This document shows, one piece after another, positions 6,972 through 10,775 of a stretch of DNA of 28,611 bases. The translations under genes were made by a program, and so were the position numbers. The stretch is from a virus. Numbering within the stretch: position 1 is the stretch's first letter; each line of letters opens with the position of its first letter. The stretch lies in IMG/VR virus record IMGVR_UViG_3300035157_001086, positions 1 to 28,611 of that record; one strand, 5' to 3'. The notes under the pieces are model-generated. The model had not been told where the DNA came from, did not search any database, and saw only the letters and a program-made list of their open reading frames with translations.

Positions 6972-7374
6972 ATTTTGTTAGTGTGTATTGTTCTGGTCTT
7001 AGTTTTAATCGTGCAATTTGTTTACATACATCATCATAATCTCTAAACCATGACCTATTAAATGTATCCTTAATAACTGGATGGAGATACCAAGGCATTG
7101 TATTCTTTATATTACCATTACCATTACCTAGTTCCCATAGATCACCAGACTTAACTTTAGTGAATACTGGTTTCTTATCAATCCTTGTCTTTCTAACCTT
7201 CGTTGATGCTAGACTCTTGAGATTCTTCTCCAAGTTTTTCTGCGTTTTCACGTTCTGCACAGAGACGGAAGAACCTCGTGAAGTCTTCTTTCGTCCAGTC
7301 GTTGAAGAAACTTTCGTCTTCGTCGTTTTCGTCCCATTCGACTGTGAACGAACCGTCTTCGTTGTCTTTGACAT
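6961..7374 (-). CDS. Small protein with a conserved-looking C-terminal half; start uncertain
   Basis: The 137-aa frame opens at ATG 7374, only 7 bases inside the preceding gene and in its +1 frame. The first 60 or so codons are Lys/Ser/Thr-rich (MSKTTKTVRSQSNG...), the composition expected when an acidic GAN-rich gene is read out of frame. From about codon 66 it becomes an ordinary protein (KPVFTKVKSGDLWELGNGNG, then MPWYLHPVIKDTFNRSWFRD and a Tyr-Asp-Gly end) with no overlapping gene. Possible starts are ATG 7374, internal GTG or TTG codons about 30-45 codons in, or a frameshift from the upstream frame. No ATG occurs between the end of the upstream gene and the conserved part. I do not recognise a function. 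It overlaps the oxygenase by 11 bases. Confidence 0.6.
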   Translation of the reverse strand: MSKTTKTVRSQSNGTKTTKTKVSSTTGRKKTSRGSSVSVQNVKTQKNLEKNLKSLASTKVRKTRIDKKPVFTKVKSGDLWELGNGNGNIKNTMPWYLHPVIKDTFNRSWFRDYDDVCKQIARLKLRPEQYTLTKYDG

Positions 7375-7381
7375 TGATCAT
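7193..7381 (-). CDS. Small acidic protein (62 aa), early gene
   Basis: The frame starts MINVKDNEDGSFTVEWDEND and continues with an acidic, aromatic-containing stretch (FFNDWTKEDFTRFFRL). I recall similar short acidic proteins in cyanophages but no function. The codons are strongly GAC/GAA/TTC-type, and the composition is that of a real protein. The frame stays open 17 codons upstream (ending LKFPFK before the Met) but offers no start codon there. A sigma70-like promoter at 7403-7431 would start transcription about 15 bases before this ATG, so ATG 7381 is the likely start despite a weak ribosome binding site. It overlaps the 137-aa frame over nearly its whole length. Confidence 0.7.
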   Translation of the reverse strand: MINVKDNEDGSFTVEWDENDEDESFFNDWTKEDFTRFFRLCAERENAEKLGEESQESSINEG

Positions 7382-7439: not shown

Positions 7440-7919
7440 TCAGAAATAATTAATGGATACTACTACTCTTATCTTTTGATCTGTACAAGTAGAACTATTG
7501 TGTGGTGTCGACCCATCAAAAAAGACTATCCTGTTCTCCACACTCTCTACTTTTGTACCATCTTCAAACTCTGTGTAACCATTATTAGTATTCACATAGA
7601 ATACAGCAGTTTTGTGTGGAAACTTAAAATCAATATGCTTTTCATGTACAATTTGTCTACCTTGATTCGTATATAATAATGCTCTTGCTCTGACAAGAGC
7701 ATTCATTTCTAACTGTTTAAAAAAAGGTATGAACTCTTCAAATATTGAACTGCTAGGTTGAAACTCCTGAAAAAGGTTATGAGTAAAATAAAAATCTGGG
7801 TCTCCACTATTAGCAACCTCTGCGTTATACAACCAAGGAAAATTATGATCTAACATCATTCTCTGTAAATGCACAAGGTAATCCTGTGGCAAAAAATTAT
7901 CTATTATCTTTTTATCCAT
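7440..7919 (-). CDS. 2-oxoglutarate/Fe(II)-dependent oxygenase (159 aa)
   Basis: A compact double-stranded beta-helix oxygenase. The iron ligands are H95 and D97 (HEKHIDF) and H140 (GSTPHNSS); R151 (KIRVVVSINYF) is the likely 2-oxoglutarate anchor. Between them lie the typical core strands TAVFYVNTNNGYTEFEDG and NRIVFFDGS. All key residues are present, so it should be active; the substrate is unknown. The N-terminal 70 residues (MDKKIIDNFLPQDYLVHLQR) resemble the lid region of phage-type oxygenases. It overlaps the upstream membrane-protein gene by 16 bases (start ATG inside AAGATGGATA), so the two are co-translated. Its end at 7440 nearly abuts the -35 box of the next promoter. Confidence 0.85.
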   Translation of the reverse strand: MDKKIIDNFLPQDYLVHLQRMMLDHNFPWLYNAEVANSGDPDFYFTHNLFQEFQPSSSIFEEFIPFFKQLEMNALVRARALLYTNQGRQIVHEKHIDFKFPHKTAVFYVNTNNGYTEFEDGTKVESVENRIVFFDGSTPHNSSTCTDQKIRVVVSINYF

Positions 7920-8385: not shown

Positions 8386-8413
8386 ATTATATAGCAATAT
8401 CAGGAAATGTCAA
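8386..8413 (-). promoter_or_regulatory. Strong sigma70-like (early-type) promoter
   Basis: The minus strand reads TTGACA (8413-8408), a 16-base spacer, then TATAAT (8391-8386). Both hexamers are perfect consensus. The -35 box is inside the last codons of the halogenase gene (Leu-Asp-Ile). It would drive the 47-aa basic protein and the genes beyond it. Confidence 0.75.
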
Positions 8414-9527
8414 GTGAATTTTCATACCAATTTTTAAAACTAAGATATGACCATTGCCCATATAACTCACTAACCTTGGGATCATACTGTTTATCTATTT
8501 CTAAGTTAGTCATACCCTTGGATTTCTCTAACATATAATTAAATTTATCATCAGGATTAAATGGAAGAGATTTAGCATATTCCCAGAAAGGAGTATCATA
8601 CTTTGAACCAAATTGATAATGCCACAATATAAATTTTTCTAATCTAAACATTTCCTCTCTAACATAAGTATTAACACTTTGCCTAGGTATCGCACCAATA
8701 GTCGTACAATAAATCGCCTGACATACATTCTGATAGAACCCTGTAGCAGTTGCTTCTAAAGGTTCTAGGAATCCACATCTATTCCCATTTAAGAAAGTTC
8801 TCTCACCCACACAAACATTCTTAGCAATATAATTCTCAAAGGTTAAATCACCATCAGGTTCTACATCAAACAATTCCATCATATTATAAGTTGCTTCTTC
8901 CTTAGATGTTATTTTATTATTATAAAGATAACCATAGGATGTACTATCTTGATTAGGAACAACAAACGTCCATCCATCAGGAGTCGCAACAGTTCTCGTA
9001 TAAATTAAATCATTATCTCTTCCCTCTTTCCGACAGAGAAGACAAGCATTTAAAGGATTGATAAGTGGTTCATAGTTATCTTTATCTCGATTATGCCTTC
9101 CTCTACAATCAATTATTATATCAGCATCTATTTCTTTTTCAGGATCATTTATAGTTTGTTGCTTAACTTTAAATAAACCAGATTCTAATACAGCATTTGA
9201 TAACTTTTGAGGAACATAGTGCATTGACATGTTAGTCATTGGAAAGGGATGAAAAAATTCATCCTTAGACTTACCCCACCCTTCATATAATATACCACTC
9301 TTAAATGTAGCACCTATAAGATTCTCTGGTGCATACCAATTTAAATCCAACACACTAGCAATAAGTCCTGCAGGTGGAACTACTGTTCCCTGTCCTACTC
9401 TCTCTATTGGATGTTCCCCTGGACTATGATAGATTTCAATCTCATACTTATCATGGGAATAATAATAAAAATGTAATGCACTAATACATCCTGCATTACC
9501 AGCACCAATAATTGCAATCTTTTTCAT
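8400..9527 (-). CDS. Flavin-dependent (tryptophan-type) halogenase
   Basis: A 375-aa FAD-dependent oxidoreductase of the tryptophan halogenase family. The Rossmann dinucleotide motif GAGNAG is at residues 8-13. K76 in GATFKSGILYEGW aligns with the catalytic Lys of PrnA-type enzymes. GFLEPLEATATGFYQ at about 252-266 matches the family's F-x-E-P-L-E-S motif with the active-site Glu. The W-x-W-x-I-P motif is degenerate (GWTFVVP, about 181-187). Known members usually exceed 500 aa, so this is a short version. These enzymes use FADH2, O2 and halide to halogenate tryptophan or other aromatics; the substrate here is unknown. Its ATG shares one base with the purS stop (TAATG), so it is translated from the same message. 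Confidence 0.85.
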   Translation of the reverse strand: MKKIAIIGAGNAGCISALHFYYYSHDKYEIEIYHSPGEHPIERVGQGTVVPPAGLIASVLDLNWYAPENLIGATFKSGILYEGWGKSKDEFFHPFPMTNMSMHYVPQKLSNAVLESGLFKVKQQTINDPEKEIDADIIIDCRGRHNRDKDNYEPLINPLNACLLCRKEGRDNDLIYTRTVATPDGWTFVVPNQDSTSYGYLYNNKITSKEEATYNMMELFDVEPDGDLTFENYIAKNVCVGERTFLNGNRCGFLEPLEATATGFYQNVCQAIYCTTIGAIPRQSVNTYVREEMFRLEKFILWHYQFGSKYDTPFWEYAKSLPFNPDDKFNYMLEKSKGMTNLEIDKQYDPKVSELYGQWSYLSFKNWYENSLDIS

Positions 9528-9850
9528 TACTCATCAAATAAATGATGTTTTGATGTACCAGCATTATCATTAGATATATTACCAATACCTGTTTCTTCTG
9601 TCTCTTCTAATTTATATTCCCAATCTTCTATCACAGTATTAGAAAGCATCCTATCAGACAGAAGATCCATCTCTTCTCTTGCTATCTCTTCACTCTCTGC
9701 ATCAAACCAAAAATCAATTGCCTTCCCAATCCTTAATAGATGAGGTTTAAGTCTAGGGGCAACCATGTGTGTATTCTTCATCACTGCATTACCAGCAGCA
9801 TCCGATACAGACCCTCTGAGTCTGACATGTACCAATGCTTTGAATCTCAT
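9527..9850 (-). CDS. purS: Phosphoribosylformylglycinamidine synthase subunit PurS
   Basis: The 107-aa protein matches PurS, the small structural subunit of the FGAM synthase complex PurLQS in de novo purine synthesis. The pattern is MRFKALVHVRLRGSVSDAAG, then a variable region, an RIGKAIDFWFDAESEE strand-helix unit, and a conserved end MLSNTVIEDWEYKLEE. PurS is usually 80-90 aa; this one has an extra polar tail of about 20 residues. purS is a common auxiliary gene of T4-like cyanophages, where it is thought to raise purine supply for phage DNA. The ATG overlaps the preceding stop (ATGA), and the halogenase follows by a TAATG overlap. Confidence 0.9.
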   Translation of the reverse strand: MRFKALVHVRLRGSVSDAAGNAVMKNTHMVAPRLKPHLLRIGKAIDFWFDAESEEIAREEMDLLSDRMLSNTVIEDWEYKLEETEETGIGNISNDNAGTSKHHLFDE

Positions 9851-10282: not shown

Positions 10283-10479
10283 TAATAAAACCTCTCATAG
10301 GGACTACCACCAACTTGTACTTCAATAGTATCGAATATTCTATTCAATGAGCGAGCAAACATTCTATATCCAGAACCAACATATAGTTGACCAAATAGTA
10401 CAGATGCTGTTGCTACACCCCAAAAGATGTAATAAAATTTAGATTTCACTTGTGCTCTTTGTTTTTCTTTAGTAATCAT
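10282..10479 (-). CDS. Small membrane protein (65 aa), unknown
   Basis: The frame starts MITKEKQRAQVKSKFYYIFW at ATG 10479, an ATGA overlap with the PsbN-like gene. It has a basic N-terminus, one hydrophobic segment (about 15-35, YYIFWGVATASVLFGQLYVG) and an amphipathic C-terminal half ending GGSPYERFY. It is a paralogue of the 59-aa protein downstream. Its position between a PsbN-like gene and other one-helix proteins suggests a thylakoid or photosystem-related role, but no family could be assigned. Confidence 0.65.
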   Translation of the reverse strand: MITKEKQRAQVKSKFYYIFWGVATASVLFGQLYVGSGYRMFARSLNRIFDTIEVQVGGSPYERFY

Positions 10480-10775
10480 TGGTCTTCATGTTTATGTTCA
10501 AGTTTACCAGACATTTCATATGCACCTTTGTTTCCACCGTGTCCATGTGCAATGCCTAGTTCATGCATTTTAGCATGTTCATCAATAGGATCTCTTAATT
10601 TTTTCTTACCTCCTCCTACTGTAAGATATAATCCCCATCCAACTAAACCAAAAAGAACTAAACCAAAGAATAAAATAAATCCTTGATCAGGAGTAAGGTT
10701 TAAATGTTGGATCATAGGTTGTTTCTCCCATGTACCAGGTAAATTATACACTGATGGTTTTGATAAAAAAATCAT
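10476..10775 (-). CDS. PsbN-like membrane protein
   Basis: The 99-aa protein has one transmembrane helix (about 32-53, FILFFGLVLFGLVGWGLYLT), followed by GGGKKKLRDPIDEH (54-67). Cyanobacterial PsbN has the same layout: one helix ending in a GYALYTAFG-type segment, then K-K-L-R-D-P-F-E-E-H. PsbN assists photosystem II assembly and repair. Differences are a 20-residue N-terminal extension and a His/Gly-rich tail of about 30 residues with several histidines (HGHGG, HKHED). The ATG at 10775 overlaps the upstream stop as ATGA. An internal ATG at codon 21 (10715) has GGGAG nine bases upstream and would give a PsbN-sized N-terminus. PsbN-like is well supported by the motif; the precise function in the phage is inferred. 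Confidence 0.7.
   Translation of the reverse strand: MIFLSKPSVYNLPGTWEKQPMIQHLNLTPDQGFILFFGLVLFGLVGWGLYLTVGGGKKKLRDPIDEHAKMHELGIAHGHGGNKGAYEMSGKLEHKHEDQ

Follow-up and report, generated by a model that had tools for sequence, protein, structure and literature searches.

A stretch of DNA that viruses of ocean cyanobacteria appear to read in two frames, for an acidic and a basic protein

In viruses of marine cyanobacteria, the same DNA seems to serve twice, one frame encoding an acidic protein and the next a basic one. The reading that best explains the data, to which a probability of about 0.85 is given, is that two genes of a T4-like cyanophage (Kyanoviridae) overlap by reciprocal overprinting. 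An acidic protein of the phrog_1364 family would be encoded in frame 0, and a basic protein would be encoded in the +1 frame from a nested ATG. The case is built on the comparison of related sequences, through the openness of the second frame, the conservation of its start, codon choice, the substitution pattern and the occurrence of the +1 gene over several unrelated hosts. Ribosomes would initiate at the nested ATG seven bases into the acidic gene, and both proteins would be made. The +1 product would have a disordered N-terminus rich in Ser, Thr and Lys, then a helix, and at the C-terminus a small conserved domain. The two genes seem to have grown into each other. The first 41 or so codons of the +1 gene would have been added when its start was extended into the acidic gene, frame 0 being probably the older there. 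From about codon 42, the +1 gene would be the older, and the acidic tail would have been added by reading on into it.

The window, i.e., the whole stretch of DNA analysed (28,611 nucleotides of the IMG/VR record IMGVR_UViG_3300035157_001086), is a cyanophage fragment. Among the phages of the collection searched, Prochlorococcus phage P-SSM7 (Kyanoviridae) matches it best, with 92.9% identity across 89% of a 601-base query. The acidic open reading frame (ORF) of 62 aa (pI 4.05) runs on the minus strand from 7381 to 7193 in frame 0, and the basic ORF of 137 aa (pI 10.4) from 7374 to 6961 on the same strand in the +1 frame. Their start codons, nested in ATGATCAATG (7372-7381, minus strand), lie at 7381 for frame 0 and at 7374 for the +1 frame. 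The preliminary description was thus correct on both ORFs and on starts seven bases apart; the dual-coded overlap measures 182 nt (7193-7374, minus strand). Residues 1-59 of the acidic protein match positions 31-92 of the 123 in the phrog_1364 profile (E 7e-25), and the +1 protein has a relative, PSSM7_031, in P-SSM7. Several landmarks of the +1 ORF can be placed on the minus strand. GTG codon 39 (7258-7260) is the start in the P-SSM7 annotation, and GTG codon 42 (7249-7251) is close to the start site of stand-alone relatives. The KTQKNLEKNL segment (residues 43-56, 7207-7248), a predicted helix within the overlap, aligns with the N-terminus of these stand-alone relatives. The C-terminal domain covers approximately residues 89-134 (6973-7110) and is made of a short helix, strands, a helix and a strand.

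Some neighbouring genes on the minus strand of the window deserve mention. The product of 7440-7919 matches phrog_274, labelled DNA endonuclease V, and no Pfam family at 0.01. By eye, its motif looks more like that of a 2OG-Fe(II) oxygenase, so the endonuclease label may be wrong. The gene at 8400-9527 encodes a 375-aa protein with a tryptophan halogenase match (PF04820, E 2e-31), and a PurS-like gene (9527-9850) adjoins it. A 99-aa protein (10476-10775) has a weak match, below the cut-off, to the photosystem II protein PsbN (E 4e-5).

Judged from the window alone, the open +1 frame could be chance, since it stays open in 15% of the synonymous resamples of the acidic gene under the window's own codon usage (P about 0.15). 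Composition is more telling. Among the two-fold C/T codons of acidic codons 5-41, 16 of 17 end in C (P about 3e-11); the 16 further ORFs of the window that were counted each have a C-ending share of 8-29%. Hydrophobic residues number 9 across 59 codons of the +1 frame, where 26.3 would be expected (z -6.4), and none of 20,000 resamples was as low. The other shifted frame, taken as a control, is likewise a little low, with 15 hydrophobics against 19.2 expected (z -2.5), and contains two stops.

Across relatives, both phages and contigs, the +1 frame is already open and similar in its first codons. In total, 67 acidic genes, distinct by their first 120 nt, were kept, 50 of them partnered, i.e., with a C-domain ORF in the +1 frame. 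Among the 17 others, four are cut by contig ends (L051, L108, L122 and L125) and 13 are complete, including L133, whose C-domain overlaps another gene. The +1 frame is open over the whole overlap (182-425 nt) in 50 of the 50 partnered genes against 3.2 expected from synonymous resampling; these genes are not independent, as 28 of the 50 representatives were retrieved by +1-protein queries and all 50 fall into seven single-linkage clusters at 80% identity over codons 1-38 (32, 8, 6, 1, 1, 1 and 1 members). The start is conserved as well. In 48 of the 50 relatives, a +1 ATG lies at most 25 nt from the position of the window's acidic start, and the remaining two (L041 and L201) have a TTG at +4. 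Where codon 3 is unable to make an ATG, the +1 start is shifted to a later suitable codon or to TTG. From the +1 start to codon 38, 410 of the 429 Asn/Asp codons end in C, and the ones that form the ATG end in T. The acidic gene begins 30 codons further upstream in 15 of the 50 relatives. Just upstream of 7381 (minus strand), the window's clade carries this frame-0 extension (MNYKYPLYAP..) as a remnant without a start codon.

The +1 proteins of these relatives end in either of two ways: type a is that of the window, and type b is marked by a CWFxC..HAxKY motif. Later in-frame starts are present in many type-b relatives (ATG 58, or GTG-ATG near codon 87), from which shorter products may be made as well. 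Forty of the 50 genes have no Shine-Dalgarno match at the +1 start, and 43 have none at the core ATG of the acidic gene, an ATG that is internal to that gene in 15 of the 50. A Shine-Dalgarno sequence shared by both starts was rejected as a general feature, being seen in L195, L201, L184 and L194 only. In 34 of the 50 genes, the TGA within ATGA terminates the +1 frame immediately ahead of the start; this TGA is also where the upstream gene stops in several records. Termination-reinitiation would suit such an arrangement; it does not apply to the window, where the upstream gene ends at 7440.

The codon bias of the acidic genes is strongest in the overlap. In acidic codons 7-38, 594 of the 628 two-fold codons of the partnered genes end in C, compared to 50 of 130 in the 13 complete unpartnered genes, controls that are mostly distant from the partnered ones and in which L131 and L132 supply 22 of the 50 (28/104 without them). 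The closest controls, L202 and L124, have 5 of 13 and 2 of 12, and flanking genes have a background of 16-30%. Internal controls come from the 15 acidic genes that carry a frame-0-only extension: C-ending codons make up 59/146 (40%) before the +1 start, 168/177 (95%) in codons 8-38 and 94/278 (34%) in the +1-only tail. An expression-linked codon preference would not stop at the borders of the overlap. The choice made in the acidic frame favours Ser, Thr and Lys in the +1 frame. In +1 codons 8-38, a mean of 1.9 hydrophobics in 31 codons is found against 14.6 expected, an approximately 7-fold depletion, and z is -3.8 or lower in all 50 partnered genes. This speaks against the suggestion in the preliminary description that the first 60 or so codons are a frame shadow of the acidic gene. 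Dual coding, one of the options it had listed, is supported by this composition, the open frame in relatives and the conserved nested start. Of the 13 complete genes with no partner, ten have z values from -1.7 to +0.9; low +1 hydrophobics are found without a partner in L127 (z -3.5), L131 (-5.4) and L132 (-5.2). L131 and L132 have no downstream domain, yet retain both the C-ending choice and the scarcity of +1 hydrophobics. They are probably recent losers of the partner domain.

Substitutions also bear the mark of two frames. In 15 matched pairs, synonymous change is reduced in the overlap, with 29 differences in 395 in the dual core against 120 in 660 in the +1-only tail (P 6e-7); synonymous constraint was one of the checks that the preliminary description had proposed. 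Without matching, the counts are 14/243 against 33/247 for CT codons and 6/127 against 30/168 for AG codons; the frame-0-only extension has 6/64 (CT) and 3/32 (AG). By frame-0 codon position, changes number 44/31/73 in codons 8-38 (22 pairs) and 63/25/34 from codon 42 on (13 pairs; P 0.0004). This switch indicates that frame 0 dominates first and the +1 frame later. Substitution classes were counted over codons 8-38 in the 22 nearest pairs, with 48 of the 50 genes kept (WDE motif at codon 16). The counts are 70 NN (non-synonymous in both frames), 37 NS and 41 SN, and dNN/dNS is about 1.16 by this crude count. No amino-acid-specific purifying selection on +1 codons 8-38 was detected in the 22 pairs, as NN changes are not depleted. 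The exact +1 residues there are therefore not strongly conserved, and selection acts on residue class.

The association is not restricted to one acidic family. A census was made by the type-b C-domain only, independently of any overlap. It kept 80 of 93 confirmed relatives, and the 80 loci gave 64 distinct ORFs, or 57 after seven truncated ones were set aside. Each of the 57 lies in +1 phase over a host ORF, with an overlap (stop to stop) of 119 nt or more. Hosts were assigned by N-terminal profiles, as the full acidic profile also matches the shared tail: 35 are WDENDP acidic proteins, 19 are MazE/AbrB-like (for instance in ACG-2014h, ACG-2014j, ACG-2014e, S-CAM4, Sf-CH11 and Sf-CH3) and three are other. 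A coiled-coil-like host is found in Sf-FR1. The alternative hosts match phrog_661 and PF04014, above the Pfam cut-off in L205, L217 and L133 and below it in L209 and L215. When the WDENDP and MazE/AbrB-like profiles are compared, only the tails align (columns 51 on), as expected if the host tail comes with the +1 gene. At L217 (594-905), the Sf-CH3 host is annotated as MazE antitoxin and the overlapping +1 ORF is unannotated. In L253, where the +1 start is near the old one, the overlap takes in just the end of a phrog_1615 gene.

The codon bias recurs in each kind of host. C-ending codons amount to 59/195 before the +1 start, 929/1033 in the overlap and 266/655 in the +1-only tail for the WDENDP hosts. 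The corresponding counts are 11/58, 351/420 (84%) and 233/377 (62%) for the MazE/AbrB-like hosts, whose tail is itself C-rich and thus gives a weaker contrast on that side, and 15/41, 60/72 and 17/56 for the other hosts. At nine non-WDENDP loci tested, the +1 hydrophobic z ranges from -4.5 to -8.7 with pooled codon usage. Openness alone is unremarkable at some of these loci (P up to 0.94 in L216).

Stand-alone relatives give hints on the origin of the overlap. Of 17 candidate loci examined, 15 proved to be stand-alone, with type-a or intermediate proteins. L133 and L205, considered as stand-alone cases with a separate basic gene, were rejected; each overlaps a MazE/AbrB-like frame-0 gene. Most of the 15 start with M-x-[KR]TQ at approximately the codon 42 site, and others nearby or later, e.g., MMKTK in L018-L020. 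They are without the N-terminal 41 codons of the +1 protein, so that part is dispensable. The preliminary description had taken the C-terminal half, beyond the first 60 codons, as clearly coding; homology to the stand-alone proteins begins at about codon 42 and not at codon 60. The same description had regarded relatives with two separate genes as the refuting case. Stand-alone downstream genes do exist; the acidic profile has a hit at none of the 15 loci, and no +1-phase host lies over the start of any of them. These loci therefore mark the older start and not two separated genes. Codon 42 is GTG in the window and GTA in 8 of the 20 overlapping relatives printed (six of the eight belong to one clade), which indicates that the old start decayed there.

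An internal start would make the downstream protein from GTG 39, GTG 42 or a later codon and leave the earlier +1 codons as an untranslated shadow. Improbable as it is, it survives best among the alternatives. The start sites of the stand-alone relatives, the P-SSM7 annotation from codon 39, the two GTG codons of the window and the later starts of many type-b relatives are all in its favour. GTA at codon 42 in the eight relatives is against it, as is the observation that codon choice and hydrophobic depletion set in soon after the nested ATG and not at codon 42. An internal GTG as the sole start is thus disfavoured by selection on the +1 frame upstream of it, in codons 8-38. In the clade of the window, codon 42 may still provide an additional start.

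A +1 ribosomal frameshift is less probable still. Ribosomes would start in the acidic frame and slip by +1 to give a fusion product, in keeping with the +1 phase relative to every census host and with +1 starts that mostly lack Shine-Dalgarno matches. A slip after about codon 8 cannot account for the selection on +1 codons 8-38, so a late slip is disfavoured as a form of the +1 frameshift listed in the preliminary description. The unrelated hosts would also each need a shift site, and a +1 ATG lies inside the overlap in 56 of the 57 census loci. The only version that keeps some plausibility has the ribosome slip at one of the first codons. That chance or codon bias in acidic genes rich in GAC, AAC, TTC and GAA left an open +1 shadow is barely credible and already contradicted: the openness of the window alone would permit it, but all 50 partnered genes are open, and the bias is weaker in the frame-0-only and +1-only parts of the same genes, while neither the other ORFs counted in the window nor most of the acidic genes without a partner show it.

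Structure prediction gives the layout of the +1 product. The model of the window's +1 protein has a mean pLDDT of 67.5 and a pTM of 0.41; residues 1-40 are of low confidence (blocks of 47-53) and probably disordered, residues 43-56 are helical, and from residue 91 the model is confident (81-92). An AlphaFold2 model of the type-b domain reached a mean pLDDT of 89 and a pTM of 0.68. This type-b model, used as the query in place of the window's own, matches the predicted structure of the P-SSM7 protein E3SNE9 (99 aa; prob 1.00, E 0.012, TMq 0.84, rmsd 1.8, 18% identity), which was taken as the type-a protein PSSM7_031 by its length. Types a and b are thus likely to be one family, and with the type-b model the same fold was found for the C-terminal domain of phrog_1609/phrog_23641. 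Against the PDB, fold searches gave nothing better than E 0.9 with the window model and E 1.1 with the type-b model. A second comparison with the type-b model had a best Z of 4.0, a commonly reached value, and no fold is therefore assigned. In a viral structure library, the type-b model has three matches at E 0.001 or lower, all to uncharacterised cyanophage proteins.

Known families cover the pair in part. The window's 137-aa protein matches no PHROG family at E 1e-3. Two families of unknown function, phrog_1609 (59 aa) and phrog_23641 (104 aa), match type-b +1 proteins over the C-terminal domain and the middle; their matches stop short of the first 37 residues in six WDENDP-overlapped +1 proteins. 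The entries for phrog_1364 and phrog_661 describe the frame-0 protein and do not mention an overlap. Pfam has no match above the cut-off for the acidic ORF, known antitoxin domains included, or for the +1 protein. PDB sequence searches gave weak hits only (DSAD1, E 0.45; E 0.33 at best for the acidic family), and there was no match in PADLOC or in a plasmid search with the acidic ORF. As a guess from the modelled tail, its basic charge might serve in nucleic-acid or partner binding, for example. By analogy, the acidic-basic pairing and the MazE/AbrB-like hosts raise an antitoxin-toxin-like role, likewise a guess.

A broader scenario is conceivable, though on balance doubtful, in which a small basic phage gene swaps hosts. 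Its +1 start would have been extended repeatedly into varied upstream genes (for acidic WDENDP, MazE/AbrB-like, coiled-coil-like and other proteins), each time producing a similar disordered tail rich in Ser, Thr and Lys, and the hosts would have gained an acidic tail by reading into the incoming gene. The result would be a charge-matched pair, possibly a regulator and an effector of the antitoxin/toxin kind.

Overlapping phage genes are already known. According to passages of PMC5295617, the lambda spanin gene Rz1 is read in the +1 frame within Rz, and the two products are membrane proteins of lysis. The pair described here resembles them as a same-strand +1 overlap in a dsDNA phage, with constrained parts opposite less constrained ones (PMC5295617, in part). 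In contrast to Rz1, which lies wholly within Rz in these passages, the +1 gene outruns its host and has several unrelated hosts. Passages of the review PMC8227390 describe a bias towards disorder-promoting residues and reduced synonymous change in overprinted viral proteins, as seen here; one gene overprinting several unrelated hosts is absent from these passages. No report of the acidic/+1 pair was found in a search of titles and abstract openings, in which subscription journals are poorly covered.

Annotation largely passes over the +1 gene. The annotation of 25 phage records carrying the +1 ORF was examined: 20 have no in-frame gene and five (P-SSM7, S-CAM22, S-RIM8, S-H35 and Sf-FR1) annotate the C-terminal part only; the nested start is used in none. 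In P-SSM7, for instance, the gene is annotated only from codon 39 (PSSM7_031, 99 aa). PHROG matches likewise omit the overprinted first part of the +1 protein. If dual coding is confirmed, gene callers and PHROG-type families would need the longer +1 protein. The findings point to a widespread gene of marine T4-like cyanophages that has been missed or shortened in annotation. Its hosts, the unpartnered controls and the stand-alone forms make up a comparative set for how overlapping genes arise, which is also suited to asking whether selection acts on residue class rather than on sequence.
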